From positions 1-55,253 of the forward strand of contig JACQGI010000008.1 in the NCBI GenBank assembly GCA_016199625.1: 55,253 nt of DNA. Direction: 5' to 3'. Made by a program: the position numbers and the translations under genes. The notes below the pieces were generated by a model. The model searched no databases and was not told where the DNA came from. It saw nothing but the letters and a program-made list of their open reading frames with translations. This DNA is from Acidobacteriota bacterium. Lineage in GTDB: Bacteria; Acidobacteriota; Vicinamibacteria; Fen-336. Numbering within the stretch: position 1 is the stretch's first letter; each line of letters opens with the position of its first letter. This document shows positions 1 through 22,654 of this stretch, one piece after another.

Positions 1-744
1 CTCATCCGCTTCGACATGTCGGAGTACATGGAGAAGCACTCGGTCAGCAAGCTCATCGGCTCGCCCCCGGGGTACGTGGGCCACGAGGAGGGGGGCCAGC
101 TGACCGAGCGGGTGAAGCGCAACCCGTACTCGGTGGTGCTCCTCGACGAGATCGAGAAGGCGCATCCCGACGTCTTCAACATCCTGCTGCAGGTCTTCGA
201 GGACGGGCACCTGACCGACGGCCTGGGCAACACCATCGACTTCAAGAACGTCATCATCATCATGACCTCGAACATCGGCGCCCGCTTCATCGAGAAGAAG
301 GGCCGCATGGGCTTCGCCTCCGCCGACCCCAAGGACACCGCCCAGGGGATCAACGAGATGGTCATGGGGGAGGTCAAGCGCACCTTCAACCCCGAGTTCA
401 TCAACCGCATCGACGAGATCATCATCTTCGACGCCCTGACCGACGACGACCTGGTGATGATCACCCGGCTCCTCGTGGACCAGTTGAACTGCAACCTCAA
501 GGAGAAAGGGATCGCCATCCAGATCCGCGACGACGGCGTCGAGTGGCTCCTGAAGAAGACCCTCCCGGACCGGTCCTACGGCGCGCGCCCGCTGCGGCGG
601 GCCATCCAACGCCACATCGAGGACGCGCTCTCCGAGGCCTTCATCCGCGGCCAGATCCGCAGCAACCGTCCCATCGACGTGGGGGTCCAGGACGGCGCGC
701 TCTGGTACTGGCAGGACGGGCGGGGCGGGATACTGTCGCAATGA
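1..744 (+). CDS. clpC: ClpC-type AAA+ protease ATPase subunit, C-terminal part (5' truncated by window)
   Basis: The reading frame is open from base 1, so only the last 247 residues are present. They cover the second AAA+ module of a Hsp100 unfoldase. Visible motifs are the pore-loop region GSPPGYVGHEEGGQLTE, Walker B VVLLDEIEKAH, sensor 1 in IIIMTSNIGA, the arginine-finger stretch FNPEFINRIDEI, and sensor 2 in SYGARPLRRAIQ. The protein would hexamerise and feed substrates to ClpP in the cytoplasm. The sequence resembles ClpC more than ClpA, but the N-terminal and middle domains that separate ClpC from ClpB are outside the window. Its stop codon overlaps the bamA start (ATGA), so translation of the two is probably coupled. 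Confidence 0.88.
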   Translation, partial: LIRFDMSEYMEKHSVSKLIGSPPGYVGHEEGGQLTERVKRNPYSVVLLDEIEKAHPDVFNILLQVFEDGHLTDGLGNTIDFKNVIIIMTSNIGARFIEKKGRMGFASADPKDTAQGINEMVMGEVKRTFNPEFINRIDEIIIFDALTDDDLVMITRLLVDQLNCNLKEKGIAIQIRDDGVEWLLKKTLPDRSYGARPLRRAIQRHIEDALSEAFIRGQIRSNRPIDVGVQDGALWYWQDGRGGILSQ

Positions 745-3182
745 GCTTCCGCCGTTCGATGGCCACATGGGCCCTGAGCGCGGCCCTCGGGGGCGGCGTC
801 CTTCCGGCAGCCGTCGCCCAGGAGGCCGCCCCGATCGTCGAGCGGGTGGAGATCCTCCAGAACCAGTACCTCCAGACAGAGACCCTCCTGTTCTACGTGT
901 CGACGAAGGCGGGGGACCGGTACGACGAGCGTCGGCTCAAGGAGGACTTCCGGCGGCTGTGGGAGACGGGCTTCCTCGACGACCTGCTCCTCGACGTCCA
1001 GGATGGGCCCAAGGGGAAGGTCGTGCGGTTCGTCGTGCGGGAACGCAAGCGGATCCAGATCGTGGACTACCGCGGGAGCAAGGCGCTCACCACGACGAAC
1101 ATCGAGGACCGGCTGAAGGAGAAGGACGCCGCGATCCGCATCGACAGCTTTTACGACCCCGCCAAGGTACGCCGTGCGGAGCAGGTGATCCGGGAGATGC
1201 TCGAGGAGAAGGGCCGGCACTTCGGCACGGTGAAGCACGACGCCAAGACCGTGGGCGGGTCCGGGACGCAGGTCTCCTTCGTCATCGACGACGGCCCGAA
1301 GACGAAGATCAAGGAGATCGACTTCGTGGGCAACGCGGTCTTCTCCGACGGGAAGCTCCGCGGGGCGATGAAGAAGGCGAAACAGGCGGGCTTCTGGAAC
1401 CTGTCGTGGCTGTCGGGGAAGCGCACCTGGACCGAGGAGAAGTGGTCGGGAGGACCGGAGGACCCCCGGGGGGACCAGGGCCGTCTGGAGGCCTTCTATC
1501 TGAACCACGGTTACGTGACGGCGACGGTCGGGCAGCCCGTCATCAGCTACGTGGGCGAGACGGGGGGCAAGAAGCCGACCAAGTGGATGAAGGTGACGAT
1601 CCCGGTGACCGAGGGCGACCAGTACCGGGTCGGCGAGGTGAAGTTCGAAGGGCTCACGGTCTTCAAGGAGGAGGCGATCCGGCCGCTGTTCAAGCTGAAG
1701 AGCGGCGACGTCTACAAGGAGTCGCGGCTCCAGAAGGCCTACGAGAAGCTCCGGGACCTCTATGGGAGCCTGGGGTACTTCCAGTGGACGGGCTACACGA
1801 AGCGCGCCCCGGACGCCGGGCGGAAGGTGGTGGACCTCGTCCTCAGCATGGAGGAGGACAAGCGCTACTACGTCGGGAAGATCCGCTTCGTGGGGAACGA
1901 CTCGACCCGCGACAAGGTGATCCGTCGCGAGGTCTACATGAACGAAGGGGACGTCTTCAACACCGAGGCGCTCAAGCTCTCCATCCGCCGGATCAACCAG
2001 CTCGGGTACTTCAAGCCCATCGAGGGGGCTCCGGAGCTGAGCCAGAGCGACCGCGCAGAGGACAAGCTCGACGTCACGTTCAAGGTCGAGGAGCAGAACC
2101 GCAACCAGTTCACGTTCGGCGCCGGGGTGTCGGGCCTCGAGGGCACCTTCGTCAACGCCTCGTTCTCCACGGCGAACTTCCTCGGTCTGGGCGAGACCTT
2201 CCAGGTGTCCGCCCAGAGCGGCAAGCGGACGAAGAACTACCAGGTCGCCATCACGGAGCCGTATTTCCTCGACCGGCCGATCACGGCGGGCTTCGACGTC
2301 TTCAAGCGCCGGCTCAGGTACGAGACCTTCGGCAACGTCCGGGGCTTCACCCAGGACACGGAGGGGCTGGGCCTCGTCTTCGGCTTCCCCCTGGGACGCT
2401 TCACCAGGATGTTCACCAACTACGCCTACGAGGTCATCGACATCGAGGACCTCGAGGGCACGGACCCGACGACGGGGGAGCCGACGACCGACCCCAACCC
2501 CATCTTCGACCCGTTCTTCTTCGGCGAGGAGGGCCGCAGGCGCGAGAGCCGGCTCAGCCCCTCGGTCGTCTACAACACCGTGGACAACCCCTGGATGCCC
2601 CGGGACGGCTGGCGGCTCACGCTGAGCGCTCCGGTGGCCGGCGGTCCCCTGGGCGGGACCCTCGACTATTTCAAGCCGAACGTCGAGGCCATCGTCTACC
2701 TGCCCCACACGCGGAAGACGGCACTGGGCCTGCGGGCCGAGATGGCCTGGCTCAAGCCGTTCGGAGATACGGCCGTGGTGGACCCCGAGACGGGTCGCAA
2801 CAAGCTGCCGCTGTACCAGCGCTTCTTCCTCGGCGGCGAGACCCAGATCCGTGGGTTCAACATCCGGAGCGTAGGACCCACCCAGACCGTCGACGAGCAG
2901 ACTCGGGCGGTCGGCGGGAACAAGTTCGTGCTCTTCAACGCCGAGTACTACGTCGACGTCGGCGGGCCGCTGCGCTTCCTGCTGTTCTTCGACGCGGGGC
3001 AGGCGTTCCTCGAAGGGGAGGGAATCGACCTCAAGCGCCTGCGGACGTCGACGGGGGCCGAGCTGCGGTTCGTCATGCCGGTGCTCAACGTGCCCTTCCG
3101 CCTCATCTACGCCGTGAACCCGAACCGGGACGCCTTCCAGCCGCGGTCGACCTTCAAGTTCGCCGTCGGCACCACGTTCTGA
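741..3182 (+). CDS. bamA: Outer membrane protein assembly factor BamA
   Basis: A 813-residue Omp85 protein that folds and inserts beta-barrel proteins into the outer membrane. Residues 1-27 form a signal peptide ending in AVA before QEAAP. Five POTRA repeats follow (about 30-450), each with the usual 'G..Y....L..D...L...GYF' pattern. The barrel starts near FGAGVSGLEG and ends in a C-terminal phenylalanine (VGTTF), the outer-membrane sorting signal. The conserved lid-loop motif appears as IRGF in FLGGETQIRGF. Start 741 was chosen because it opens directly on the signal peptide and overlaps the clpC stop; the frame continues upstream but that part is a shadow of clpC. It heads a bamA-ompH-fabZ/lpxA-lpxI cluster, a common diderm arrangement. 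Confidence 0.95.
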   Translation: MSFRRSMATWALSAALGGGVLPAAVAQEAAPIVERVEILQNQYLQTETLLFYVSTKAGDRYDERRLKEDFRRLWETGFLDDLLLDVQDGPKGKVVRFVVRERKRIQIVDYRGSKALTTTNIEDRLKEKDAAIRIDSFYDPAKVRRAEQVIREMLEEKGRHFGTVKHDAKTVGGSGTQVSFVIDDGPKTKIKEIDFVGNAVFSDGKLRGAMKKAKQAGFWNLSWLSGKRTWTEEKWSGGPEDPRGDQGRLEAFYLNHGYVTATVGQPVISYVGETGGKKPTKWMKVTIPVTEGDQYRVGEVKFEGLTVFKEEAIRPLFKLKSGDVYKESRLQKAYEKLRDLYGSLGYFQWTGYTKRAPDAGRKVVDLVLSMEEDKRYYVGKIRFVGNDSTRDKVIRREVYMNEGDVFNTEALKLSIRRINQLGYFKPIEGAPELSQSDRAEDKLDVTFKVEEQNRNQFTFGAGVSGLEGTFVNASFSTANFLGLGETFQVSAQSGKRTKNYQVAITEPYFLDRPITAGFDVFKRRLRYETFGNVRGFTQDTEGLGLVFGFPLGRFTRMFTNYAYEVIDIEDLEGTDPTTGEPTTDPNPIFDPFFFGEEGRRRESRLSPSVVYNTVDNPWMPRDGWRLTLSAPVAGGPLGGTLDYFKPNVEAIVYLPHTRKTALGLRAEMAWLKPFGDTAVVDPETGRNKLPLYQRFFLGGETQIRGFNIRSVGPTQTVDEQTRAVGGNKFVLFNAEYYVDVGGPLRFLLFFDAGQAFLEGEGIDLKRLRTSTGAELRFVMPVLNVPFRLIYAVNPNRDAFQPRSTFKFAVGTTF

Positions 3183-3202: not shown

Positions 3203-3877
3203 ATGAGACACGCCGTCTTTTTCGCCGCGCTGTTCGCCGGCGCGGCTGCCGCCGCTGCGGCCCAGGAGGCCGCCCCCGAGAAGCCGCAGGGAGGGGACCG
3301 GCTCGCCCGCATCGCCGTCATCGACATGGGGCGCATCTCCACGGACTCGCTCATGGGCAAGGGCTACGCCGCACAGCTCGAGGCCCTCAAGAACGAGATC
3401 GACTCGGAGGGGACCAAGAAGCAGAACGAGCTGCAGAAGCTCGATCAGCAGATCAAGGCGCTGCAGGAGGAGCTGGAGAAGCAGGCGAGCGTCCTCTCCC
3501 CGGAGGCCGTGGAGAAGAAGAGCCAGGAGATCAAGAAGAAGCAGCGTGACCGCCAGGCCTTCGTCGAGGATGGGCAGGCCGAGCTCGAGCGGATGCGCGA
3601 GCGGGCACGCCAGCAGGCTCAGGTCTTCAACAACGAGTTCCAGCAGAAGATCCGTCCCCACATCGAGGCCGTGGCGAAGGACAAGGGGATCGACATCCTG
3701 CTCGACTCCCAGGTGGCTCTCACGGTGAGCCGGGCCTTCGACGTCACACAGGACGTCATCGTGAAGGCCGACGATGCCGAGAGATCGGGCAAGGCCGCGG
3801 TCGGGGCGGCGAAGCCGCCGGCCGAGAAGCCGGCAGCGGCGGCGAAGCCGAGCCCGGCCCCGAGCCCGCAGCCCTGA
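3203..3877 (+). CDS. ompH: OmpH/Skp family periplasmic chaperone
   Basis: A 224-residue secreted protein of the Skp family, which holds unfolded outer-membrane proteins on the way to BamA. Residues 1-20 are a signal peptide (MRHAVFFAALFAGAAAAAAA). The short strand IAVIDMGRI is the Skp trimerisation core. Residues 60-150 are a long charged coiled coil rich in Lys, Glu and Gln (the Skp tentacle), and IDILLDSQVAL is the closing core strand. Unlike most Skp proteins it carries a 35-residue Ala/Pro/Lys tail after residue 190. A good ribosome site, AAGGAGAAG, lies 2-3 bases before the ATG. It is 20 bases downstream of bamA in the same operon. Confidence 0.9.
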   Translation: MRHAVFFAALFAGAAAAAAAQEAAPEKPQGGDRLARIAVIDMGRISTDSLMGKGYAAQLEALKNEIDSEGTKKQNELQKLDQQIKALQEELEKQASVLSPEAVEKKSQEIKKKQRDRQAFVEDGQAELERMRERARQQAQVFNNEFQQKIRPHIEAVAKDKGIDILLDSQVALTVSRAFDVTQDVIVKADDAERSGKAAVGAAKPPAEKPAAAAKPSPAPSPQP

Positions 3878-3923: not shown

Positions 3924-3964
3924 CTCCCCTCGGTCCCCCGGGCGCGAACCAGAGCGGAGCTTCC

Positions 3965-5221
3965 GTGGCCCCTTCCGAGACCATCGACATCGGTCGTCTG
4001 ATCCGGCAGATCCCCAGCCAGTACCCCTTCGTCCTCGTGGACCGGGTCCTCGAGCACGATGCGGGCGGCCTGGTCGGGCTCAAGAGCGTCACAGGATCCG
4101 AGGATTTCTTCGAAGGGCATTTCCCCGGCGCCCCCGTCATGCCCGGTGTCCTCATCATGGAGAGCCTGGCCCAGGCCGCCGGGATCTGGCTCCTCCGGAA
4201 CGCTCCCGATCCTGCCCGCGTCGAGGTCTACGTCGTGGGGATCGACGACGCAAAGTTCCGGCGTCCGGTGGTCCCCGGCGACCAGCTCCGCCTGGAGATC
4301 CGGATCCTCCACCGCCGCGGCGCCCTCTCGCGCGTCCGCGGTGAGGTCCGTGTCGGGGAACACCGGGCCGCCGAGGCGCGACTGCTCCTCCAGTCCATCA
4401 CCCTGGCGACGCCCGAGATCGATCCGACGGCCCGCATCTCGCCGGCGGCCGTTTTGGAGCCGGGCGTGCGCATCGGGCCCTACTGCGTCGTGGGCCCCCA
4501 GGTACGGATCGGATCCGGGACCGTCCTCGAGTCCCACGTCGTCGTCGAAGGGCCCACGGCGATCGGCCACGACAATCGCTTCCATCCGTTCGCCTCGGTG
4601 GGCCTCGCACCGCAGGACCTCAAGTACCGCGGCGAGGCCTCGCGTCTCGTCATCGGCGACCGGAACGTGTTTCGCGAGTTCGTCACGATCCACCGCGGGA
4701 CCGAAGGCGGCGGATGGGTCACGCGCATCGGGTCGGACAACCTCCTCCAGGCCCACGCTCACGTCGCCCACGACTGCTCCGTCGGGAGCCACACGATCCT
4801 CGCCCATGGCGCGACCCTGGGGGGTCACGTGGAGGTGGGGGACTACGCCATGGTCGGGGCCTTCTCCGGGGTGCACCAATTCTGCCGTGTCGGCGCCCAC
4901 GCGTTCCTCGGCGGGTTCACCGTCGCGACCAAGGACGTGCTGCCGTACTCCAAGACCGTGGGCAACAGGGCTTGCATCTATGGGATCAATCAGGTCGGAC
5001 TGCAGCGGCGGAGCTTCTCCCCGGGGAGCATACGGGAGCTGCGCCAGGCCTATCGCGTGCTCCTCCAGAGCCGGCTGAACACCTCCGACGCCGTGCGTCG
5101 CCTCGAGGCCGAGGGTCCCCACACGGCTGAGGTCCGCGCCGTCGTTGAGTTCATCCGCTCGTCGGACCGGGGCGTCATCCTGAAGCGACGGAGTCGCGGG
5201 GACGACGACGCCGAGGAGTGA
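3965..5221 (+). CDS. FabZ-LpxA fusion: 3-hydroxyacyl-ACP dehydratase / UDP-GlcNAc 3-O-acyltransferase
   Basis: One uninterrupted 418-codon frame joins two lipid enzymes. Residues 1-150 are FabZ, with the hot-dog signature GHFPGAPVMPGVLIMESLAQ carrying catalytic His52 and Glu66; FabZ dehydrates 3-hydroxyacyl-ACP. Residues 152-418 are LpxA, a left-handed beta-helix of hexapeptide repeats with catalytic His269 in AHVAHDC, followed by VHQFCRVGAHAF and the C-terminal helical domain. LpxA transfers the same 3-hydroxyacyl group onto the UDP-sugar in the first step of lipid A synthesis. The linker is only a few residues (about 148-153). The start is GTG at 3965 after a weak GGAG. The two activities compete for one substrate, so the fusion joins the branch point between lipid A and membrane lipids. 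No frameshift or internal stop is visible. Confidence 0.93.
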   Translation: MAPSETIDIGRLIRQIPSQYPFVLVDRVLEHDAGGLVGLKSVTGSEDFFEGHFPGAPVMPGVLIMESLAQAAGIWLLRNAPDPARVEVYVVGIDDAKFRRPVVPGDQLRLEIRILHRRGALSRVRGEVRVGEHRAAEARLLLQSITLATPEIDPTARISPAAVLEPGVRIGPYCVVGPQVRIGSGTVLESHVVVEGPTAIGHDNRFHPFASVGLAPQDLKYRGEASRLVIGDRNVFREFVTIHRGTEGGGWVTRIGSDNLLQAHAHVAHDCSVGSHTILAHGATLGGHVEVGDYAMVGAFSGVHQFCRVGAHAFLGGFTVATKDVLPYSKTVGNRACIYGINQVGLQRRSFSPGSIRELRQAYRVLLQSRLNTSDAVRRLEAEGPHTAEVRAVVEFIRSSDRGVILKRRSRGDDDAEE

Positions 5222-6042
5222 TGGGCGAGCCGCTCGGGCTGATCGCCGGCAACGGACGCTTCCCGTTCCTCGTGGCTGCGGCCGCCCGGCGCGCGGGCCG
5301 CCGGATCGTCACCGTGGCGGTCCGCGAGGAGGCGTTCCCGGAGCTGGAGAAGGAAGTCGACGTCTTCCACTGGGTGGGCCTCGGACAGCTCGGCCGGTGC
5401 ATCGAGGTGCTCCGCAAGGAGGGCGTGCGCGAGGCCGTCATGGCCGGGCAGGTGAAGCACCGGCAGATCTTCTCGAACATCGTCCCCGACTTGAAGCTCA
5501 TGGGCGTTCTGGCGCGACTGGCCGTGAGGAACACCGACAGCCTCATCGGGGGGGTGGCGGAGACCCTGGGCCGCGAGGGCATCACGCTCCTGCCGTCGAC
5601 CGAGCTCCTGCAGGACCAGATGGCCGGGGCCGGGGCGCTCACCCGCCTTGCGCCGTCACGGGCGTCGGTCAAGGACGTCGAGTACGGCCGGAAGATCGCG
5701 CGCGCCCTCGCCGGGATGGACCTGGGCCAGACGGTGGTGGTCAAGGACCGCGCGGCCGTGGCTCTCGAGGCCATGGAGGGGACCGACGAGGTGATCCGCC
5801 GGGCGGGTCGCATCGCGGGTCCGGGAACCACCGTGGTCAAGGTCGCGAAGCCGAAGCAGGACATGCGCTTCGACGTGCCGGTCGTTGGGACGGGGACCCT
5901 CGCGGCGATGTCGGAGGCCGGCGCGGCGACGCTGGCGGTGGAGGCGGGACGGACGCTCCTCATCGACCGGACGGACTTCCTGGCGGCTGCGGACCGGGCC
6001 AGGATCGCCGTCCTGGGCATGCAGCCGGGGAACGATGCCTGA
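5221..6042 (+). CDS. lpxI: UDP-2,3-diacylglucosamine pyrophosphatase LpxI
   Basis: A 273-residue protein of the former DUF1009 family. LpxI hydrolyses UDP-2,3-diacylglucosamine to lipid X and UMP, the step done by LpxH in Escherichia coli. Diagnostic motifs are the N-terminal LGLIAGNGRFPFLV, AMEGTDEVIRRAG, and KPKQDMRFDVPVVG, where Asp218 matches the catalytic aspartate known in the Caulobacter enzyme. The ATG at 5221 overlaps the preceding stop by one base (TGATG). A GTG one codon upstream is an alternative. Its place after lpxA matches lpxA-lpxI neighbourhoods in bacteria lacking LpxH. lpxB, which would use its product, is not in this window. Confidence 0.93.
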   Translation: MGEPLGLIAGNGRFPFLVAAAARRAGRRIVTVAVREEAFPELEKEVDVFHWVGLGQLGRCIEVLRKEGVREAVMAGQVKHRQIFSNIVPDLKLMGVLARLAVRNTDSLIGGVAETLGREGITLLPSTELLQDQMAGAGALTRLAPSRASVKDVEYGRKIARALAGMDLGQTVVVKDRAAVALEAMEGTDEVIRRAGRIAGPGTTVVKVAKPKQDMRFDVPVVGTGTLAAMSEAGAATLAVEAGRTLLIDRTDFLAAADRARIAVLGMQPGNDA

Positions 6043-6976
6043 TCCGCTCCGCGTGGCGGTCGTCGGCGTGGGGGCCCTCGGGCAGCACCACGCCCGGGTC
6101 TACGCCTCGCTGGGCGAGGCGCGGCTCACGGGAGTGTACGACGTCGATGCGTCGCGGGCCGCCGGCGTAGCCGAGCGGCACTCCACCCGCCCGTTCGCCC
6201 ACCTGCGGGACGTCATCGCCGCGAGCGACGCCGCGTCCGTGGCCGTCCCGACCGTGGACCATCATCGCGTGTGCCGGGTCCTTCTCGAAGCGGGCAAGCA
6301 CGTCCTCGTCGAGAAGCCGATGACGACCACGCTCGCCGAGGCCGACGACCTCATTCGGCTGGCGGAGAGGAACGGCGTCGTGCTCCAGGTGGGTCACATC
6401 GAGCGGTTCAACCCTGCCGTGGATGTCCTCCGCGAGGCCGTCAGTCGGCCCCGCTTCATCGAGGTCCACCGGCTCGGCTCTTTCTCCGCGCGCAGCCTCG
6501 ACATCGACGTCGTCCTCGACCTCATGATCCACGACCTGGACATCGTGCTCTCCCTGGACGGGTCCGAGCCGCTCCAGGTGGACGCGGTCGGCGTGCCGGT
6601 CCTCACGCCGAAGGTGGACATCGCCAACGCCCGCCTCCGGTTCGCCTCGGGCCTCATCGCCAACCTCACGGCGAGCCGGGTCTCCGCCGAGAAGGTCCGC
6701 AAGTTTCGCGTGTTCTCGCCGCGGACCTACGTATCGGTCGACTTCGCCGCTCGCGAAGCCCGGGTCTACCGGCTCCTCGAGAAAGAGGGCCGCCCCGAGA
6801 TCGACGTCAGGCACACGGCGGCACCCGACCAGGAGCCCCTCCAGCGTCAGCTCCAGGCCTTCCTGGCATCCGCCCGAACGGGAGCGACGCCTGTCGTCTC
6901 CGGCCAGGACGGCCGCCGGGCCCTCTCCCTTGCCCACACCATCCTGGAGAAGATGGGCGACCTCAAGATAGAGTAG
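6035..6976 (+). CDS. Gfo/Idh/MocA family NAD(P)-dependent oxidoreductase
   Basis: A 313-residue dehydrogenase. The N-terminal Rossmann fold has VAVVGVGALGQHHARVYA. The EKPMTTTLAEAD segment (the family's EKP motif with its lysine) and LMIHDLDIVL, which contains the usual catalytic His, are both present. The C-terminal half is the alpha/beta sheet domain. The start ATG overlaps the lpxI end by 8 bases, so it belongs to the lipid A operon. The substrate cannot be read from sequence. A sugar-nucleotide 3-dehydrogenase role like GnnA (making UDP-GlcNAc3N for LpxA in Acidithiobacillus) would fit the location, but the partner aminotransferase gnnB is not here. Confidence 0.85.
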   Translation: MPDPLRVAVVGVGALGQHHARVYASLGEARLTGVYDVDASRAAGVAERHSTRPFAHLRDVIAASDAASVAVPTVDHHRVCRVLLEAGKHVLVEKPMTTTLAEADDLIRLAERNGVVLQVGHIERFNPAVDVLREAVSRPRFIEVHRLGSFSARSLDIDVVLDLMIHDLDIVLSLDGSEPLQVDAVGVPVLTPKVDIANARLRFASGLIANLTASRVSAEKVRKFRVFSPRTYVSVDFAAREARVYRLLEKEGRPEIDVRHTAAPDQEPLQRQLQAFLASARTGATPVVSGQDGRRALSLAHTILEKMGDLKIE

Positions 6977-7085: not shown

Positions 7086-8117
7086 ATGACGCAGCGCGTG
7101 GGCTTTCTGGTGTCCGCGATCATTCACTTGATGCTCTTGATGGCATTGATCGAGAACACTGCGAACGCACCGACCCGGCCCGTGCCTCCGGCCGGGCCGC
7201 CCCCGGAACGTCAGGAGGTGGTGTTCCTCCCCCCGCCCGAGGTGCTCCGGCAGTTGCTCCCTGCACCGGATCCCTCCCTCCTTGTGCAGCGAGCACTCGG
7301 GGGGACGCCGCCGGCTATGGCGATCCCCCTGGCTTCGCCGGCGCCCCCGCCATCGCCGACCCCGCCGCCACCACTGGTCCCCAAGGATCGCGTCAGCATC
7401 GGGGGTCCGGGGCCCCGCAAGGAGGGCCCACTGGTCCTTCAGCCCGAGGTGGACATTACGGCGGCGAAGGGCACACCGACCGGCGGTGGACCGCGGCAGT
7501 TGCCCCGTACCGAACCCACGCCAACACCGCCACCCCCGGGAAACGCGGCTGTGGACAGTCCGGCGGTCGTCGCCTCAAAGGACGGCGTGCCGACGCCTCG
7601 GGCACCTGAGGGCCTGCCCCTTGTTCCTGGCGAGGGCCGCGTCGAAAGGGGGCTGCAGGAGCGGGCCGAGCGCGTCGGGGGTGCTCGGAGAGACGGGAGC
7701 CAGCCCTCGATCGCCGGCTCGCTGAGGAACCTGGACCGGAGGCTCCAGGAACCAGGCCCCCTGGGCGTTCCTTCGGGCACGCGACAGCAGGTGGGGCCGC
7801 TCCTGTTCGACCCCGAGGGGGCCGATTTCACCTCCTGGACCAACCACTTCAAGAACGAGGTCTACCGCAATTGGATCGTTCCCCAGCCAGCCCTCATGGG
7901 CTTCCGCGGCCACGTGGACATCGAGTTCACCGTCGAGCGTGACGGGTCCGTGAGCCACTTGGCGATCCTGAAGGGCTCCGGGACGCTCGCCCTCGACCGC
8001 GCGGCCCAGAACGCCATCCTGGGCAGCCGCTTCCAGGCGCTGCCCGCGGACTTCAGGCCGCCGCGGGTGACGATGCAGGCGTCCTTCTTCTACAACGAAG
8101 CGCCGCAAGGATCGTGA
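7086..8117 (+). CDS. tonB: TonB family protein
   Basis: A 343-residue inner-membrane energy transducer. Residues 6-22 form one N-terminal transmembrane helix (VGFLVSAIIHLMLLMAL). A long Pro-rich periplasmic spacer follows (about 30-240, with runs such as PAPPPSPTPPPPL). The C-terminal TonB domain is at about 250-338, including FRGHVDIEFTVERDGSVSHL and LDRAAQNAI. Such proteins pass proton-motive force to outer-membrane receptors, usually with ExbB/ExbD, which are not encoded here. The start has a good ribosome site (AGGGGAG, about 6 bases upstream). The next gene overlaps its stop, so the two are co-translated. Confidence 0.85.
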   Translation: MTQRVGFLVSAIIHLMLLMALIENTANAPTRPVPPAGPPPERQEVVFLPPPEVLRQLLPAPDPSLLVQRALGGTPPAMAIPLASPAPPPSPTPPPPLVPKDRVSIGGPGPRKEGPLVLQPEVDITAAKGTPTGGGPRQLPRTEPTPTPPPPGNAAVDSPAVVASKDGVPTPRAPEGLPLVPGEGRVERGLQERAERVGGARRDGSQPSIAGSLRNLDRRLQEPGPLGVPSGTRQQVGPLLFDPEGADFTSWTNHFKNEVYRNWIVPQPALMGFRGHVDIEFTVERDGSVSHLAILKGSGTLALDRAAQNAILGSRFQALPADFRPPRVTMQASFFYNEAPQGS

Positions 8118-10351
8118 TCCTCCTCCGCGGACTGCGGCGCGGCGGGGCGACACTCGCTGCAGGATTCGTCGTGGCTGCCGCCGTGGCCGCGAGCTGCCGG
8201 AGCCTGCCGGATCGCGCTCCCGTGGGCCCGCCGGCGTTGCCTCAGCCCGCTTTCGACGGCCTCGTCCCGGGGCCGAGCCTCCGCGTGGGCATCCTCACCG
8301 ACGCCCGCCGGGTCTCGATCGCGGCCGAGTCGGCGGTGGACGTGTGGGTCACGGGGGACGGAGCGGGCCGGCCCCGGTCGGTGCAGCGGGCCACCTTCGG
8401 AGCGGTGTCCGGGGCGCTGTCGGAGGCCTCGCGGTACCGTGTCCAGGTGGCGAGCCTCGCGAGCGAGACGGCGGCGCGCCTCGCTTCGACGCGGGCGAAG
8501 GAGGCGTCGGGCCTCCCCCCGACGGTGCAGTGGAACGGGGCGACGAGCACCTACCAGGTGCGCGTGGGTGCCTTTGCCACCCGCGAGGAGGCGCGCGCCC
8601 TGGCGGACCGGCTGTCCTGGACCGGCCTGCGCGGGGCGTTCGTCGCTGAGGAGACCTCTGCGGAGCTCGGTGGCGTCATGAGGCTCCACGAGACCGAGGA
8701 AGAAGTCTCCGCCGCCACGGTCGTGCCGGGATACCCGGGCGAGATCCTCACGGTGGATGGCACTCCCTACCGCGGGCTCATCGAAGTGCGTCCCAACGGG
8801 GCGGGGAGCCTCACGGTCGTGAACATCGTGAACGTCGAGGACTACCTCCGCGGCGTCGTCCCCAACGAGCTGTCGCCGCAGGGCTTCCCCCAGATCGAGG
8901 CGCTCAAGGCGCAGGCTGTGGCTGCGCGGACCTACGCGCTGCGCAACCGAGGGCAGTTCCGCAACAGGGGCTACGACATCTGCGCAACACCGTCCTGCCA
9001 GGTCTACCGGGGCATGGCCACGGAGGACCCCCTCGCGGACCGGGCCGTGGAGGAGACCCGGGGCGTCGTCGGTGCCTGGGGTGACGGCCTGATCAACGCC
9101 CTCTACACCTCGACGTGCGGCGGGCACACCGAGGACAGCCAGCACATCTTCGAGGGCGAGCCGGTGCCGTACCTGAAGGGCGTGGCGTGCGCCCCCGAGC
9201 GGTCGGCCTGGGGCGCGATCCGCACCGCCGCGGCCACCGAAAGCCTCGGCGACGAGGAGGGCCTGAACCGCGACGCCGCGCTGCTGGTGGCTCTGGGCGT
9301 CGTCGAGCCGCGCCTGTACGAGGCGAAGACCCTGAAGGGGTTCGCCACGGACACCGAGGTGCGTTCGTGGACGTCGCGTCTCGTCACCGCCCTCCGGCGC
9401 AAGGGGTGCCCCGGGGCCGAGCCGCCGCTGGCACGCCGGGCGGGGTTCTTCCACCACGTCGTGGCGAGCCTCTGCTGGGAGGAGCGCGCTCAGCGCCTGC
9501 TCTCGCCGGATGATCCCGAGTACCTGCTGCAGGTCGAGGATGGGGCCGAGCTCGCGGGGAACGGCGAGCGACTGGCCGCGGCGCTGTTGATCCAGGAGGG
9601 GGTGCTCTCGCCGTTCCCCGACAACACCCTGCGGCCCGGGATTCCCGTCACGCGGGCCCAGGCCGTGCGCCTGCTCGCGCGCGCGGCCGGGCGGGCCGGC
9701 GTGCCGGGGCTCGTCACCGCCGAGTTCCGGGGCGCCGAGGCTGGAGAGCTCCGCGTGCGCCGCGGCGACGCCCTCGAGTCCCACCCCCTCGACCGCTCGG
9801 CCCGGCTGTTCCGAACCATCGACGGCAGTGCCGTGGCCGCCTCGGAGATCAGCCTGGTTGCAGGCGACGTGGTGCGCTTCGTGACTCAAGAGGGTCGGGT
9901 CGTGTTCCTCGAGGCCGAGCACAGCCGCCTCGGGGCGGCCGCCGATCGCACGTCCCGGTACTATCGCTGGGAGGTCCGCCTGACACCTGCGCAGGTCGCC
10001 CAGGGCCTCTCGCGGTACGGGAGCGTCGGCAGGGTGAAGGACGTCGTGCCGCGGAGGATCGGGGTCTCGGGTCGCGTCGTCGAGCTGGCGGTCGTCGGCA
10101 CCGAGGGAGAGCTGGTGTTGCGGGGGCTGAAAGTCCGCTGGGCCCTGGGCCTCCGCGAGAACCTCTTCGTGGTGGATCGCGAGACAGACGTCCACGGCGC
10201 CGTGGAACGCTTCGTGTTCACGGGCAAGGGATGGGGCCACGGCGTCGGTCTCTGCCAGGTGGGGGCGTACGGCATGGCCGTCGCCGGCGCGACGTACGAG
10301 GAAATCCTCGGGCACTACTACACGGGCATCCGGCTGGACAAGGCCTACTAG
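8114..10351 (+). CDS. SPOR-SpoIID composite envelope protein with SLH-bearing insertion
   Basis: A 745-residue exported protein. Residues 10-28 are hydrophobic and end in AASC, a weak lipobox, so it may be a lipoprotein. Residues 107-177 form a SPOR peptidoglycan-binding repeat (YRVQVASLAS, YQVRVGAFATREEARALADR). The SpoIID lytic-transglycosylase fold starts near 215, with Glu252 in VVPNELSP, ALKAQAVAARTYAL and a conserved Cys pair at 290/295. It resumes at 615-745 with GKGWGHGVGLCQVGAYGMA. Between these halves, about 365-610 is an insertion containing an SLH-like motif (VLSPFPDNTLRPGIPVTRAQ). SpoIID acts on denuded glycan strands during sporulation; a diderm homologue probably remodels septal or side-wall peptidoglycan. 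GTG start overlapping tonB by 4 bases. Confidence 0.82.
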   Translation: MILLRGLRRGGATLAAGFVVAAAVAASCRSLPDRAPVGPPALPQPAFDGLVPGPSLRVGILTDARRVSIAAESAVDVWVTGDGAGRPRSVQRATFGAVSGALSEASRYRVQVASLASETAARLASTRAKEASGLPPTVQWNGATSTYQVRVGAFATREEARALADRLSWTGLRGAFVAEETSAELGGVMRLHETEEEVSAATVVPGYPGEILTVDGTPYRGLIEVRPNGAGSLTVVNIVNVEDYLRGVVPNELSPQGFPQIEALKAQAVAARTYALRNRGQFRNRGYDICATPSCQVYRGMATEDPLADRAVEETRGVVGAWGDGLINALYTSTCGGHTEDSQHIFEGEPVPYLKGVACAPERSAWGAIRTAAATESLGDEEGLNRDAALLVALGVVEPRLYEAKTLKGFATDTEVRSWTSRLVTALRRKGCPGAEPPLARRAGFFHHVVASLCWEERAQRLLSPDDPEYLLQVEDGAELAGNGERLAAALLIQEGVLSPFPDNTLRPGIPVTRAQAVRLLARAAGRAGVPGLVTAEFRGAEAGELRVRRGDALESHPLDRSARLFRTIDGSAVAASEISLVAGDVVRFVTQEGRVVFLEAEHSRLGAAADRTSRYYRWEVRLTPAQVAQGLSRYGSVGRVKDVVPRRIGVSGRVVELAVVGTEGELVLRGLKVRWALGLRENLFVVDRETDVHGAVERFVFTGKGWGHGVGLCQVGAYGMAVAGATYEEILGHYYTGIRLDKAY

Positions 10352-14693: not shown

Positions 14694-15734
14694 ATGACCG
14701 GGACCGCGACCCAGCCGCCCCGGGTGGCCGTGGATGCCCTCGGGGGCGACCACGGCCCGCGCGTGGTGGTGGAAGGGGCGGCGGCGGCGTGCCGTGAGCT
14801 GGGGGTGCGCGTCCTGCTCGTCGGACCTCGCGCCATCGTCGTCGAGGAGGTTCGTCGCGCGGGTGCGGAAGGGCTGTCCCTCGAGGTCGTGGACGCGCCC
14901 GAGGCCGTGGACATGGCCGAGAAGGTCACCAAGGCCACCCTCAAGAAGCGTTCATCGATCCACCTGGCGACCGAGCTCGTTCGCGACGGGGGAGCGGACG
15001 CGTTCTTCTCCGCCGGCAACACAGCGGCCTGCTGGACCATCGCCCGCATGGTGCTCGGAACCCTGGAAGAGGTCGACCGGCCCGCCCTTGCCGCCGTCGT
15101 GCCCAACGTCGCGGGCCGCACGGTCCTTCTCGACGTCGGCGCCAACGCCTCGTGCAAGGCACGCCACCTCGAGGAGTTCGCGGTCATGGGGAGCATCTAC
15201 ACGCGGGCCGTCCTCCACGTGCCCAACCCACGCGTCGGGCTCATGAGCATGGGGGAGGAGGAGACCAAGGGGAACGAGCTCGTGAAGGAGGTCCACGAGG
15301 TCCTGAAGGCCTCGGCCTTGAACTTCGTCGGAAACGTCGAAGGGCACGACGTCTTCAACGGACGCGCCGACGTCATCGTGATGGATGGGTTCACCGGCAA
15401 CGTCGTCCTGAAGACCAGCGAGAGCCTCGCCGAGTCGATGATGCACCTGCTCAAGGAGGAGCTGACCCGTACGCGCTTGCGCCTCGTCGGGGCCTGGCTC
15501 TCGCGCGGCGCATTCGAGGCCGTCAAGCGCCGGACCGACGCCTCGGAGTACGGGGGGGCGCCGCTCCTGGGGGTGAAGGGCTGCTGCGTGATCGGCCACG
15601 GGCGCTCCAATGCCACGGCGATCAAGCACGGCATCCGCGTGGCCGCCGAGTTCTTCGCGAGCGGCGTGAACGAGCGCATCGAGTCGGAGCTTCGCGCCCT
15701 GGGGGCGCGGAAGGAGGCGACGCCCAGCGTATGA
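14694..15734 (+). CDS. plsX: Phosphate acyltransferase PlsX
   Basis: A 346-residue enzyme that converts acyl-ACP to acyl-phosphate, the first step of phospholipid synthesis by the PlsX/PlsY route. Conserved blocks are VAVDALGGDHGPRVVVEGA near the N-terminus, ADAFFSAGNTAACW, LLDVGAN, GFTGNVVLKTSES, and GAPLLGVKGCCVIGHGRSN near the C-terminus. The length is typical. The gene begins 9 bases after rpmF and overlaps fabD by 4 bases (ATGA). PlsY is not in the window. Confidence 0.95.
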   Translation: MTGTATQPPRVAVDALGGDHGPRVVVEGAAAACRELGVRVLLVGPRAIVVEEVRRAGAEGLSLEVVDAPEAVDMAEKVTKATLKKRSSIHLATELVRDGGADAFFSAGNTAACWTIARMVLGTLEEVDRPALAAVVPNVAGRTVLLDVGANASCKARHLEEFAVMGSIYTRAVLHVPNPRVGLMSMGEEETKGNELVKEVHEVLKASALNFVGNVEGHDVFNGRADVIVMDGFTGNVVLKTSESLAESMMHLLKEELTRTRLRLVGAWLSRGAFEAVKRRTDASEYGGAPLLGVKGCCVIGHGRSNATAIKHGIRVAAEFFASGVNERIESELRALGARKEATPSV

Positions 15735-16681
15735 GCCTCGCGTTCGTCTTCCCCGGGCAGGGGTCGCAGAAAGTGGGCATGGGAAAGGGCCTGGCCGACG
15801 CCTTCCCGGAGAGCCGCGCCGTCTTCGAGACTGCGGACCGGGCCCTCGGCTTCTCCCTCTCCACCCTGTGCTTCAAGGGACCGGAGTCCGACCTCAAGCT
15901 GACGGCCAACACCCAGCCGGCCATCCTCACAGCGAGCATCGCGGCGTATCAGGCCCTGGTGGCGCGCGGGATACGGCCCGCGTGGGTCGCCGGCCACAGC
16001 CTCGGGGAGTACTCGGCCCTCGTCGCCGCAGGCACCCTGTCCCTCGGCGACGCCGTCGTGGCCGTTCGCCGTCGGGGGGAGTACATGCAGGAGGCGGTCC
16101 CGTTCGGGCAGGGCGCCATGGCGGCGATCCTCGGCCTGGACCTCGCCAGCATCGAGAAGGCGTGCGCCGATGCGGCCCAGGGCGAGGTGGTCGCGCCGGC
16201 CAACATCAACTCGCCCGACCAGGTGGTGATCGCCGGCCACGCGGGGGCCGTGGCCCGCGCGAGCGAGGCCTGCAAGTCCGCCGGGGCCAAGCGCGCCGTG
16301 CCGCTCCCCGTGTCCGCTCCCTTCCACTGCGCCCTCATGATGCCCGCCCAGGAACGGCTCGCAGCGGACCTGGCGCGCCTGACGTTCCAGGACCCCGAGG
16401 TGCCGATGGTCAGGAACGTCGACGCCAGCCCCGTACGCTCGGCACCGGACTGCCGCGACGGGCTGGTCCGGCAGGTGTCCAGCGCCGTCCGCTGGCAGCA
16501 GGTCGTGGAGGTGCTGGCGCGGGAAGGCGTCGACACCTTCGTGGAGGTCGGTCCGGGCTCGGTGCTCTCGGGGCTGGTCAAGCGCATCGCCAAGGGGGTC
16601 CGATTGCTCAACGTCGAGGACGCGGCGAGCCTCGACAAGACGACGGTTGCCCTCGGCGAGAGCACCCGGGTGCAGGGATGA
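15731..16681 (+). CDS. fabD: Malonyl-CoA:ACP transacylase FabD
   Basis: A 316-residue enzyme that moves malonyl from CoA to ACP, supplying the extender unit for fatty acid synthesis. The N-terminal VFPGQGSQKVGMG is diagnostic. The nucleophile is Ser90 in AGHSLGEYSAL and the catalytic His is His199 in SAPFHCALM. QVVIAGH and VEVGPGSVLSGLVKR are further family motifs. It overlaps plsX and fabG by 4 bases each, so the three are translated as a unit. Confidence 0.96.
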   Translation: MSLAFVFPGQGSQKVGMGKGLADAFPESRAVFETADRALGFSLSTLCFKGPESDLKLTANTQPAILTASIAAYQALVARGIRPAWVAGHSLGEYSALVAAGTLSLGDAVVAVRRRGEYMQEAVPFGQGAMAAILGLDLASIEKACADAAQGEVVAPANINSPDQVVIAGHAGAVARASEACKSAGAKRAVPLPVSAPFHCALMMPAQERLAADLARLTFQDPEVPMVRNVDASPVRSAPDCRDGLVRQVSSAVRWQQVVEVLAREGVDTFVEVGPGSVLSGLVKRIAKGVRLLNVEDAASLDKTTVALGESTRVQG

Positions 16682-17427
16682 CGGAGCCGACGTTGAGGGG
16701 CAAGGTGTCGCTGGTCACCGGTGCGTCGCGTGGCATCGGGCGGGCGATCGCCCGCACCCTCGCGACCGCGGGGGCCACGGTGGTCGTCGGCGCCCGGGAC
16801 TCCGCGAAGCTCGAGGAGGTCGTGGCGGAGGTCGGGGCGGCGGGGGGCCGGGCGCTGCCCCTCCGTTTGGACGTGGCCGATCGGGCCTCGGTCGAGGCCG
16901 CCTTCGCGGCGATCCTCGGCGAGCACGGCCGGATCGACCATCTCGTCAACAACGCCGGGATCACCCGGGACAACCTGCTGCTGCGCATGAAGCCCGCCGA
17001 GTGGGACGACGTCCTGGCGACGAACCTCACGGGCACGTTCCTCTGCACCCAGGCAGCGCTCCGGCCCATGCTGAAGCAGCGCGCCGGGCGGATCGTCAAC
17101 GTGACCTCGGTCGTCGGGCTGGCGGGCAACGCGGGGCAGGCCAACTACGCGGCCAGCAAGGCCGGCATCGTGGGCTTCACGAAGTCGATCGCCCGGGAGG
17201 TGGCGTCGCGCGGCATCACGGTGAACGCCGTCGCCCCCGGGTTCATCGAGACCGACATGACCGGGGCGATGACCGAAAAGGCGCGCGACGCCATCGTCTC
17301 GGGCATTCCCCTGGGCCGGGTGGGGCGCCCCGAGGACGTGGCCGGGGTGGTCGCTTTCCTGGTCTCCGATGCGGCCGCGTACGTGACGGGGCAGGTCCTG
17401 GCGGTGGACGGCGGCTTCCACATGTAA
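16678..17427 (+). CDS. fabG: 3-oxoacyl-ACP reductase FabG
   Basis: A 249-residue short-chain dehydrogenase that reduces 3-oxoacyl-ACP with NADPH. The cofactor loop is TGASRGIGRAIA, with NNAG at 91-94. The active site is Ser144, Tyr157 and Lys161 (TSVVGLAG and NYAASKAG). The C-terminal end GQVLAVDGGFHM is typical of FabG. Length and context (fabD before, acpP and fabF after) separate it from the many other SDR enzymes. The start overlaps the fabD stop (ATGA). Confidence 0.95.
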   Translation: MTEPTLRGKVSLVTGASRGIGRAIARTLATAGATVVVGARDSAKLEEVVAEVGAAGGRALPLRLDVADRASVEAAFAAILGEHGRIDHLVNNAGITRDNLLLRMKPAEWDDVLATNLTGTFLCTQAALRPMLKQRAGRIVNVTSVVGLAGNAGQANYAASKAGIVGFTKSIAREVASRGITVNAVAPGFIETDMTGAMTEKARDAIVSGIPLGRVGRPEDVAGVVAFLVSDAAAYVTGQVLAVDGGFHM

Positions 17428-17430
17428 AAT
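17425..17430 (+). promoter_or_regulatory. Possible -10 element for acpP
   Basis: TAAAAT (5/6), directly preceded by TG, overlaps the fabG stop codon. No good -35 lies upstream. A lone TTGACA at 17489-17494 in the same 125-base gap lacks a matching -10. acpP is often transcribed separately at high level, so a promoter in this gap is expected, but which element is used is unclear. The rest of the gap shows nothing else recognisable. Confidence 0.28.
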
Positions 17431-17552
17431 GGCCGCGAGACATGGCACGGACGGCGCCTCGGGGGCATGGATGAGGCAGGGACGTTTCTTGACACGAGGA
17501 CTGGATTAGGGATTCGCGGAGCGAATTCCTTCGCGAGTTCCTGGAGGACTGC

Positions 17553-17801
17553 ATGGAGCCTGTTGCCGATCGCGTGAAGAAGATCATCGTCGAGCAGCTC
17601 GGTGTCGAGGAGGAGTTGGTGACGCCCGAGGCCTCCTTCGTCGACGACCTCGGGGCGGACAGCCTCGACACGGTGGAGCTCGTGATGGCCCTCGAGGAGG
17701 AGTTCGGGATCGAGATCCCCGACGAGGACGCCGAGAAGATCACCCGTGTGAGGGAAGCCGTGGACTACATCGACAAGCACGCGGAGAAGGCCAAGAAGTA
17801 G
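17553..17801 (+). CDS. acpP: Acyl carrier protein
   Basis: An 82-residue acidic protein. Ser37 in [18 protein letters not shown] is the site for the 4'-phosphopantetheine arm that carries growing acyl chains to FabG, FabZ, FabF, PlsX and LpxA, all but FabI-type reductase being encoded in this window. The flanking helices [15 protein letters not shown] and [13 protein letters not shown] are typical. A strong ribosome site, CTGGAGGA, precedes the ATG at good spacing, consistent with high expression. It is followed by fabF after 2 bases. Confidence 0.97.
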
Positions 17802-17803
17802 GG

Positions 17804-19051
17804 ATGTCCGACAAGCGAAGGGTCGTCGTCACAGGCGTCGGGCTCGTGTCGGCCCTCGGGATAGGAACCGAGGAGACCTGGAAGGGTCTCCTCGAGGGCC
17901 GTTCCGGGGCCGCGCCGATCACGCTGTTCGACGCGTCTCAGCACTCCACGCGGTTCGCCTGCGAGGTGAAGGGTTTCGACCCCCAGAACTGGGTGGACAA
18001 GAAGGACGTCAAGAAGATGGACCGGTTCATCCAGTTCGCCGTCGCTGCGTCGGAGTTCGCGATGAGGGACTCCGGCCTCGTGGTGGACGGGGGCAACGCC
18101 GAGATGGTGGGCGTCTACATCGGAAGCGGGATCGGCGGGTTCGCCACCATCGAGAGGGAGCACGAGACGCTCATGAAGAGCGGGCCCAGGCGGATCAGCC
18201 CGTTCTTCATCCCGGCCTCGATCGTGAACCTGGCGTCGGGCTGGGTGTCGATCCGGACCGGGGCGAAGGGGCCCAACTCGGCCACGTGCACGGCTTGCAC
18301 GACGAGCGCCCACGCGGTGGGGGATTCCTACCGGCTCATCCAGCGCGGCGAAGCCGACGCGATGATCGCCGGCGGGAGCGAGGCCGCCATCACACCGCTG
18401 GGTGTGGGCGGATTCTGCGCCATGCGGGCCCTCAGCACGCGTAACGACGCCCCTGAGAAGGCGTCGCGGCCCTTCGACCGCGACCGCGACGGCTTCGTGA
18501 TCGGCGAAGGGGCGGGGATCGTGATCATCGAGGAGCTGGAGCACGCCCGGCGGCGAGGAGCGCGCATCTACTGCGAGGTCGTGGGCTACGGGATGTCCTC
18601 CGATGCCTACCACATCTCCGCGCCGTGCGAAGACGGCGACGGGGCGATCCGGGTGATGCGTCGGACGTTGAAGGACGCCGGCCTGGAGCCGTCGGCCGTG
18701 GGCTACGTCAACGTCCACGGGACGTCGACGCCGGTCGGGGACAGGATCGAGGTGGTGGCCCTGAAGGCCGTCTTCGGTGACCATGCCCACAAGATGGCCG
18801 TGAGCTCGACGAAGTCGATGACGGGCCACCTGCTCGGGGCCGCCGGGGGACTCGAGGTCGGGATCACCGCCCTGGCCCTCAAGGAGCAGGTGCTCCCTCC
18901 GACGATCAACAACGACAACCCGGACCCGCAGTGCGACATCGACTGCGTGCCCAACAAGGCACGGAAGGCCGACCTGCGCTACGCCCTCTCCAACTCCTTC
19001 GGCTTCGGAGGGACGAACGGCGCGCTGCTGTTCCGCCGCTTCGAGGCCTGA
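17804..19051 (+). CDS. fabF: 3-oxoacyl-ACP synthase II FabF
   Basis: A 415-residue condensing enzyme that elongates acyl-ACP with malonyl-ACP. The active triad is Cys165 in TCTACTTSAHA, His305 in NVHGTSTPVGD and His342 in STKSMTGHLLGAAGG. The C-terminal NSFGFGGTNGALLF is the usual gating-loop region. Start ATG 17804 is 2 bases after the acpP stop, giving the very common acpP-fabF pair. The family also makes longer unsaturated chains, but fabA/fabB-type functions cannot be judged here. Confidence 0.96.
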   Translation: MSDKRRVVVTGVGLVSALGIGTEETWKGLLEGRSGAAPITLFDASQHSTRFACEVKGFDPQNWVDKKDVKKMDRFIQFAVAASEFAMRDSGLVVDGGNAEMVGVYIGSGIGGFATIEREHETLMKSGPRRISPFFIPASIVNLASGWVSIRTGAKGPNSATCTACTTSAHAVGDSYRLIQRGEADAMIAGGSEAAITPLGVGGFCAMRALSTRNDAPEKASRPFDRDRDGFVIGEGAGIVIIEELEHARRRGARIYCEVVGYGMSSDAYHISAPCEDGDGAIRVMRRTLKDAGLEPSAVGYVNVHGTSTPVGDRIEVVALKAVFGDHAHKMAVSSTKSMTGHLLGAAGGLEVGITALALKEQVLPPTINNDNPDPQCDIDCVPNKARKADLRYALSNSFGFGGTNGALLFRRFEA

Positions 19052-20971: not shown

Positions 20972-22654
20972 ATGGCTGAGCGCGACGTCCTCGAGACCGA
21001 CGTCCTGGTGGTGGGGGGTGGCCCGGCGGGGCTCGCCGCGGCCATCCGCTTCAAGGATCTCCTCGACGAGCACAACAAGACCGCCCAGAAGAAGGTCGAG
21101 GCCTCGGTCATGGTCGTCGAGAAGGCCGGGGAGTTCGGCGGCCACAGTCTCTCGGGGGCCGTGCTCGATCCCATCTCACTGCGGGAGCTCTTCCCGGACT
21201 TCAAGGAAAAAGGCGCCCCGGTGGCGACAGAGGTCACCGAGGACCACGTCTACATGCTGACGTCGTCGGGGAAGATCCCGTTGCCGATCGTCCCGCCGCC
21301 GTTGCAGAACCACGGCAACTACGTCATCAGCCTCAACCAGCTCGTGAAGTGGCTGGCCGCGCAGGCCGAGGCCCGGGGGATCGACTGCCTCGCGGGATTC
21401 CCTGGCGCCGAGATCCTGTACGAGGGCGACCGGGTCGTGGGCGTGCGGACCGGCGACAAGGGGATCGACAAGCACGGAAAGAAGAAGAGCAACTTCGAGG
21501 CGGGGGTGGACCTCCGGGCCAGGGTCACGATCCTCGCCGAGGGCGCGCGGGGGAGCCTCGCAAAGCAGCTCATCTCACGCCTCGAGCTCGACCAGGGGAA
21601 GTTCCCCCAGGTGTACTCCATCGGCGTGAAGGAGCTCTGGGAGGTCCCGAAGGGTCGGTTGCCGAAGGGGGCCGTCATCCACACGATGGGCTATCCCCTC
21701 GACTCCCACACCTTCGGAGGCGGCTTCATCTACGGGTTCACCGAAGAGCGGATCTCGATCGGGCTGGTCGTCGGCCTGGACTACCGCGATCCCTTTCTCG
21801 ACCCCCACGGGCTGTTCCAGAAGCTCAAGGAGCACCCCCTGGTGCGAGCCCTGCTCGAGGGCGGGAAGATGGTCCGGTACGGGGCACGGACGATCAGCGA
21901 AGGGGGCTGGTACTCGATCCCGCGGCCGTACGCCGACGGCGTGCTCCTCGTCGGGGAGGACGCCGGCTTCCTGAACGCCATGCGCCTGAAGGGCATTCAC
22001 CTCGCGTTGAAGACCGGGATGCTCGCGGCCGAGACCGCCCTCGAGGCCGTGGTGGCCGACGACACCTCGGCGGCGAAGCTCAAGGCCTTCGAGGACAGGG
22101 TGAACGCCTCCTACGTCAAGCGGGAGCTCTGGAAGGTCCGCAACTTCCACCAGGGCTTCAAGCATGGCTTGTGGGCGGGCCTCGTCCACAGCGGGCTCCA
22201 GATGTTCTCGGGCGGCCGAGGCCTCGTCGACCCCATGGCGCCGTCGAGGGGCTACGCCGAGGTCCACAAGCTCGCGGAATACTACGGTCCCGGGGCGAGC
22301 CGCGACCGCTTCCAGCGCCTCAGGGCCGACGGCCAGCTCACCTTCGACCGCCTGACCGACGTCTATCACTCCGGTACGAAGCACGACGAAGACCAGCCGA
22401 CGCACCTGCACGTCGCCGATCCGACGGTCTGCGAGACGCGGTGCAAGGAGGAGTTCGGGAACCCCTGCGAGAAGTTCTGTCCCGCAGCGGTCTACGAGAT
22501 GGTCCCGAAGGGCGACGACCCGAAGGACGTGCGGCTCCAGATCAACTTCTCCAACTGCGTCCACTGCAAGACGTGCGACGTCATGGACCCGTACCAGATC
22601 ATCACGTGGGTCACGCCCGAGGGGGGCGGCGGGCCGCGGTATGATGATCTCTGA
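20972..22654 (+). CDS. Electron transfer flavoprotein:ubiquinone oxidoreductase
   Basis: A 560-residue membrane-associated flavoprotein that passes electrons from ETF to the quinone pool. The N-terminal FAD site is VLVVGGGPAGLAAAIRF. GGHSLSGAVLDP and VLLVGEDAGFLNAMRLKGIH are ETF-QO signatures. The C-terminal 4Fe-4S region has Cys residues in CETRCKEEFGNPCEKFC and in NCVHCKTCDVMDP, ending at ITWVTPEGGGGP, the standard end of the family. Its place right after etfBA gives a complete route from acyl-CoA dehydrogenases to respiration. It overlaps the next gene by 14 bases. Confidence 0.95.
   Translation: MAERDVLETDVLVVGGGPAGLAAAIRFKDLLDEHNKTAQKKVEASVMVVEKAGEFGGHSLSGAVLDPISLRELFPDFKEKGAPVATEVTEDHVYMLTSSGKIPLPIVPPPLQNHGNYVISLNQLVKWLAAQAEARGIDCLAGFPGAEILYEGDRVVGVRTGDKGIDKHGKKKSNFEAGVDLRARVTILAEGARGSLAKQLISRLELDQGKFPQVYSIGVKELWEVPKGRLPKGAVIHTMGYPLDSHTFGGGFIYGFTEERISIGLVVGLDYRDPFLDPHGLFQKLKEHPLVRALLEGGKMVRYGARTISEGGWYSIPRPYADGVLLVGEDAGFLNAMRLKGIHLALKTGMLAAETALEAVVADDTSAAKLKAFEDRVNASYVKRELWKVRNFHQGFKHGLWAGLVHSGLQMFSGGRGLVDPMAPSRGYAEVHKLAEYYGPGASRDRFQRLRADGQLTFDRLTDVYHSGTKHDEDQPTHLHVADPTVCETRCKEEFGNPCEKFCPAAVYEMVPKGDDPKDVRLQINFSNCVHCKTCDVMDPYQIITWVTPEGGGGPRYDDL

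Follow-up and report, generated by a model that had tools for sequence, protein, structure and literature searches.

A fabZ-lpxA fusion gene in Vicinamibacteria links two enzymes of the lipid A branch point

The fused gene and its predicted product

The window, by which we mean the whole 55,253-nucleotide stretch of DNA analysed here, comes from a genome of the class Vicinamibacteria (Acidobacteriota; assembly GCA_016199625.1, contig JACQGI010000008.1). On its forward strand, an open frame of 418 codons runs from a GTG start to a TGA stop and encodes the dehydratase FabZ followed directly by the acyltransferase LpxA. The features of the locus, all on the + strand, are as follows.

744..3182, +: bamA, conserved upstream neighbour, start approximate (TIGR03303, 506 bits; synteny)
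3203..3877, +: skp/ompH-like chaperone gene (NF008047, weak; synteny)
3956..3959, +: Shine-Dalgarno-like GGAG, 5 nt before the GTG start (sequence)
3965..5221, +: fabZ::lpxA fusion gene, 418 aa (uninterrupted frame; orthologous fusions in 55/74 class genomes)
3983..4390, +: FabZ (hotdog dehydratase) domain, aa ~7-142 (NF000582/PF07977; Foldseek 3d6x)
4118..4120, +: codon of FabZ catalytic His52 (invariant in 41 fusions)
4160..4162, +: codon of FabZ catalytic Glu66 (invariant in 41 fusions)
4391..4411, +: junction, aa 143-149, where the last FabZ strand (133-146) ends and a short turn leads into the first LpxA rung (151); no ATG
4412..5185, +: LpxA (left-handed beta-helix acyltransferase with C-terminal helices), aa ~150-407 (NF003657/TIGR01852/PF13720; Foldseek 5dem)
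4769..4771, +: codon of LpxA catalytic His269, E. coli His125 (1lxa alignment; invariant in 41 fusions)
5221..6042, +: lpxI, overlapping the fusion stop codon (TGATG) (PF06230/PF17930)
6035..6976, +: Gfo/Idh/MocA oxidoreductase, conserved downstream neighbour (PF01408)

An earlier note on this DNA had described one frame holding a complete FabZ, a few residues and a complete LpxA, and family scores, the open frame and the presence of both folds in a predicted structure bear this out. Its coordinates and its choice of His52, Glu66 and His269 were also correct, as judged by the FabZ motif and the alignment with 1lxa. The FabZ domain scores 94 bits against PF07977 and 142.7 against NF000582, above the cut-off of 113, and falls slightly under the cut-off of TIGR01750 (139.5 versus 155.15). 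His52 and Glu66 lie in the motif EGHFPGAPVMPGVLIMESLAQ. Fold and HFPG/Glu active site are common to this domain and E. coli-type FabZ (NF000582, TIGR01750); the latter is usually a separate protein of ~150 aa, whereas the fused domain is joined at its C terminus and lacks the usual C-terminal tail.

The LpxA half exceeds the cut-offs of both NF003657 (342.6 bits, cut-off 226) and TIGR01852 (313.8 bits, cut-off 231) and includes the C-terminal Acetyltransf_11 domain PF13720. Alignment with 1lxa places E. coli His125, His122, His144 and His160 at His269, His266, His288 and His304, so that the fused LpxA is full length and has the same active-site His set as known LpxA (NF003657, TIGR01852; 1lxa, 5dem), with 45-50% identity to the solved structures. 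Unlike ordinary LpxA, it has no start Met, its N terminus running on from FabZ. Identification as LpxD was rejected (TIGR01853, 66.6 versus a cut-off of 242.5), as was identification as LpxC-FabZ, there being no LpxC domain in the protein and a score of 150 against NF009667, for which the cut-off is 465.

The earlier note had named an interruption between the domains as one finding that would refute a fusion. No stop or frameshift occurs within 4390-4450 of the window, and the same frame is present in two closed isolate genomes. The linker in the window's protein is ~5 residues, and in most of 48 distinct fusions the first LpxA rung follows the last FabZ strand after 3-5 residues, with 8-16 in family f4. 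Across 41 aligned orthologues, at 46-73% identity, the frame stays open, and FabZ His52, Glu66 and Pro60 and LpxA His266, His269, His288 and His304 are all invariant; a chance open frame is thereby excluded.

A single-chain AlphaFold2 model built on a 91-row alignment has a pLDDT of 94.5 and a pTM of 0.83, the latter seemingly higher than would be expected for two freely floating domains. In the model, the last FabZ strand spans 133-146 and an LpxA helix begins at 151, with a pLDDT of 93 for the junction block. Foldseek matched the model to Pseudomonas LpxA (5dem) and Campylobacter FabZ (3d6x), with TM scores, taken on the target, of 0.97 and 0.86, respectively.

Distribution and origin of the fusion

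The window's genome is fragmentary (1.37 Mb, 44 contigs, 63% complete), and the fusion is the single match in it. A search of this genome and its relatives gave an uninterrupted full-length fusion frame in 43 genomes; with the relatives and a phylum sample taken together and doubtful cases checked, 55 of the 74 genomes examined from class Vicinamibacteria have an uninterrupted fusion. Of the remaining 19, four have the gene cut by a contig end or a frame error (G001, G015, G348, G371), ten are f3 family members without lpxA, and four belong to family f10, in which fabZ and lpxA are separate adjacent genes in three and no pair was found in G042. No fabZ-lpxA pair was found in the last, G059. 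Both closed Luteitalea genomes carry the fusion: that of L. pratensis, a single contig of 7,480,314 bp, and that of strain TBR-22, of 6,468,984 bp. These sizes are those published for the chromosomes of L. pratensis HEG_-6_39, sequenced with PacBio plus Illumina at QV60 (PMC4882960), and of Luteitalea sp. TBR-22 (PMC8852301); both organisms belong to class Vicinamibacteria of the Acidobacteriota (PMC8852301).

The earlier note had proposed mapping the architecture by phylum, and in the phyla sampled here it was found only in Vicinamibacteria. An uninterrupted full-length match was found in none of 345 genomes from other classes of Acidobacteriota, and no fusion was found in 299 genomes of Pseudomonadota, 145 of Verrucomicrobiota or 120 of one further phylum (that holding locus L061). 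The open-frame length given by the search reads through stops, and 55 further loci were therefore read directly; none is fused. Among genomes not read in this way, fusions with a very long linker could escape detection. Long frames elsewhere (G723, G729, G759, G749, G913, G886 and others) proved on direct reading to be stop read-through or chance extension, and a triple LpxC-FabZ-LpxA fusion, considered for Verrucomicrobiota, was not found in the 145 genomes; several loci read in that phylum have LpxC-FabZ followed by lpxA.

Outside the class, the same two genes commonly stand side by side. They are usually adjacent in other Acidobacteriota, often with the neighbours of the fusion (bamA, skp, lpxI and the Gfo gene), and in adjacent pairs from other Acidobacteriota and from Pseudomonadota the gene order is that of the fusion, with at least one stop codon between the genes where the fusion has none. 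Within the class, two f10 loci (L077, L078) show a 4-nt overlap of the ATGA type between the fabZ stop and the lpxA start. On the reading favoured here, the fusion arose from adjacent or overlapping genes in the ancestral order skp-(lpxD)-fabZ-lpxA-lpxI, probably once and within Vicinamibacteria.

Phylogenetic analysis of FabZ plus LpxA recovers the class as monophyletic (100/99) and places unfused f10 inside it with weak support (89/69). Holding all fusions as one clade is not rejected, either on the FabZ-LpxA protein (p-AU 0.476) or on the neighbouring genes (p-AU 0.396). In a tree of ClpB, BamA, LpxI and Gfo, f10 groups with f3 (support 100), the two together forming a third lineage of the class. 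A single fusion event after f3 and f10 had split off is the simplest reading, not a proven one; two fusions, or one fusion and a fission, are also compatible with these trees.

Gene neighbourhood and further FabZ and LpxA copies

The order clpB-bamA-skp-fabZ::lpxA-lpxI-Gfo is kept in fused genomes whose loci extend far enough, with skp below detection in a few. In the window, there is no lpxD between the skp-like gene and the fusion, its usual place, and no room for one; L. pratensis has an LpxD-like gene close to lpxB. Both the window's genome and the fused relatives tested have LpxC and LpxB, the LpxC of the window's genome being a separate gene on contig C23. The Gfo/Idh/MocA gene at 6035-6976 could, as a guess, be of the GnnA type, making an amino-sugar substrate for LpxA.

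Family f3 presents a different picture. LpxC and LpxB are absent from all eight f3 genomes tested, with no LpxA match either, and at four f3 loci (L144-L147) a divergent fabZ lies between bamA/skp on its upstream side and spoIID on its downstream side; lpxA, lpxI and the Gfo gene were not detected there. Lipid A synthesis has likely been lost in this family, within the class. The same four loci keep clpB-bamA-skp, and tonB was seen in one.

The other refuting finding named in the earlier note was a separate full-length fabZ and lpxA elsewhere, with the fused copy unexpressed. Neither gene was found in the window's genome, at its 63% completeness, and the window's plsX-fabD-fabG-acpP-fabF cluster (14694-19051) contains no fabZ. 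Relatives give a more mixed result, some having an extra LpxA, while their other FabZ-like gene lacks HFPG. Scanning with PF07977 gave two loci each in G005 (99% complete) and G057 (97%), namely the fusion and a ~150-aa paralogue in which HFPG is replaced by AGPGG or variants and the Glu is kept. This paralogue is present in many genomes of the class (L126-L134, L148, L151) and in G005 adjoins an S4/pseudouridine synthase gene. L. pratensis has the fusion, the HFPG-less paralogue and a further short FabZ-like protein with GHFPD. Since the FabZ-like gene that all scanned genomes have besides the fusion lacks HFPG, the principal or even the only canonical FabZ among the PF07977 matches in these genomes is probably the fused domain.

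For LpxA, additional stand-alone copies with the catalytic His occur in some f1, f6 and f10 genomes (L116-L125), at 38-44% identity to the fused LpxA, and LpxA is therefore not always tied to FabZ in this class. The search of relatives found no such copy in L. pratensis. In G005 the stand-alone LpxA has an amidohydrolase gene as its neighbour and not genes of lipid A synthesis.

Proposed function and competing explanations

The FabZ fusions that we found described are lpxC/fabZ (PMC3087551, PMC516016), and the earlier note was right to treat FabZ-LpxA as a different pairing. We found no description of a FabZ-LpxA fusion in the literature and no FabZ-LpxA model in an NCBIfam scan; other databases may already list the architecture. 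LpxC-FabZ (PRK13188/NF009667), known from the Bacteroidetes, Chlorobi and Verrucomicrobia and thus from a different phylum, likewise joins FabZ to a lipid A enzyme of the same ancestral gene cluster, and the logic of tying two branches together is shared. The differences are that FabZ is C-terminal to LpxC and N-terminal to LpxA, and that LpxA shares the acyl-ACP substrate of FabZ, whereas LpxC does not.

That substrate, (3R)-hydroxyacyl-ACP, goes to lipid A when LpxA takes it and to elongation when FabZ does (PMC3087551). In E. coli and Klebsiella, but not in P. aeruginosa, lpxA/lpxC defects are suppressed by mutations in fabZ (PMC12152623). On sequence grounds, we consider it quite likely that fabZ::lpxA encodes a bifunctional branch-point enzyme that fixes FabZ and LpxA at 1:1. 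The N-terminal FabZ would dehydrate hydroxyacyl-ACP for fatty acid and phospholipid synthesis, serving general fatty acid synthesis, and the C-terminal LpxA would move the same acyl group to UDP-GlcNAc in the first step of lipid A synthesis. Joining competitors would give no channelling between steps; instead, the fusion would hold the two enzymes at 1:1 in one location shared for acyl-ACP, and such coupling may buffer the ratio of lipid A to phospholipid.

The FabZ hexamer is built from three dimers and has 32 symmetry; LpxA forms a C3 trimer. The earlier note pointed out that the fusion makes a trimeric LpxA carry FabZ units that usually form hexamers. This need not be a conflict, as the FabZ hexamer contains the three-fold axis that an LpxA trimer requires. 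Given these symmetries, two LpxA trimers could cap a FabZ hexamer coaxially, and the fusion may form a 32-symmetric particle of six chains, with a FabZ hexamer as core and LpxA trimers on both three-fold faces.

The most serious rival is that overlapping, translationally coupled operon genes merged by drift and that both activities persist with no regulatory or structural benefit, to which we assign somewhat less than an even chance. The f10 overlaps lie a small step from fusion, adjacency of the two genes is ancestral across the phylum and beyond, and the join consists of a minimal linker to which no domain has been added. In the fused lineages, nonetheless, no intact split copy was seen despite ~50% divergence, retention that would not by itself prove selection, and a fixed ratio should matter for enzymes that compete for one substrate and whose mutations interact by suppression in E. 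coli (PMC12152623). That just one of the two halves, either LpxA or FabZ, is still catalytic and the other is a relic serving as scaffold appears improbable. The FabZ half does diverge more than LpxA among distant members and falls below the TIGR01750 cut-off, and some genomes have an extra LpxA; against this, His52, Glu66, Pro60 and the LpxA active-site His residues are invariant, and G005 and G057 have no other canonical FabZ by the PF07977 scan.

It is very unlikely that internal initiation or proteolysis gives two separate proteins from the fused gene, FabZ and LpxA. An in-frame GTG does lie near the junction in some orthologues, but the 48 distinct fusions have no conserved start codon there: an ATG occurs within -20 to +12 codons in 9 of them, at scattered positions, and the commonest candidate, a GTG at +9 (22/48), is inside LpxA proper. 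The linker, predicted with high confidence, is also too short for an exposed cleavage loop. An assembly or binning artefact might be suspected in a fragmentary metagenome-assembled genome that is 63% complete, yet the same frame is found in 54 other genomes, including two closed isolates, one of them sequenced with PacBio plus Illumina at QV60 (PMC4882960), which leaves this explanation a negligible chance.

Work on the balance of lipid A and phospholipid in Gram-negative bacteria has centred on E. coli and the degradation of its LpxC. A bolder and rather doubtful proposal is that most Vicinamibacteria have no canonical FabZ other than the fusion, which would also be their main LpxA and would act as a dedicated branch-point particle whose abundance and geometry, and not LpxC proteolysis alone, set the partition of hydroxyacyl-ACP. 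With two competitors for a branch substrate locked at 1:1 in most of a class of soil bacteria, including the cultured and sequenced L. pratensis, the effect of the ratio is directly testable, and a sister lineage in which lipid A synthesis has seemingly been lost provides a natural comparison.

Other parts of the window gave further observations. The LPS exporter subunits LptF and LptG, as a rule separate proteins, form one chain of 798 aa at 37252-39648 (- strand); in the 20 other Acidobacteriota genomes searched, both halves were matched in one apparent frame (one match is partial, and the frame length reads through stops), and such matches include f3 genomes without lpxA, lpxB or lpxC. SPOR, SpoIID and SLH-like domains are combined in one protein at 8114-10351 (+), in a Gram-negative envelope operon, and at 22641-23687 (+) a histone-deacetylase-family gene adjoins an ETF-quinone oxidoreductase gene.
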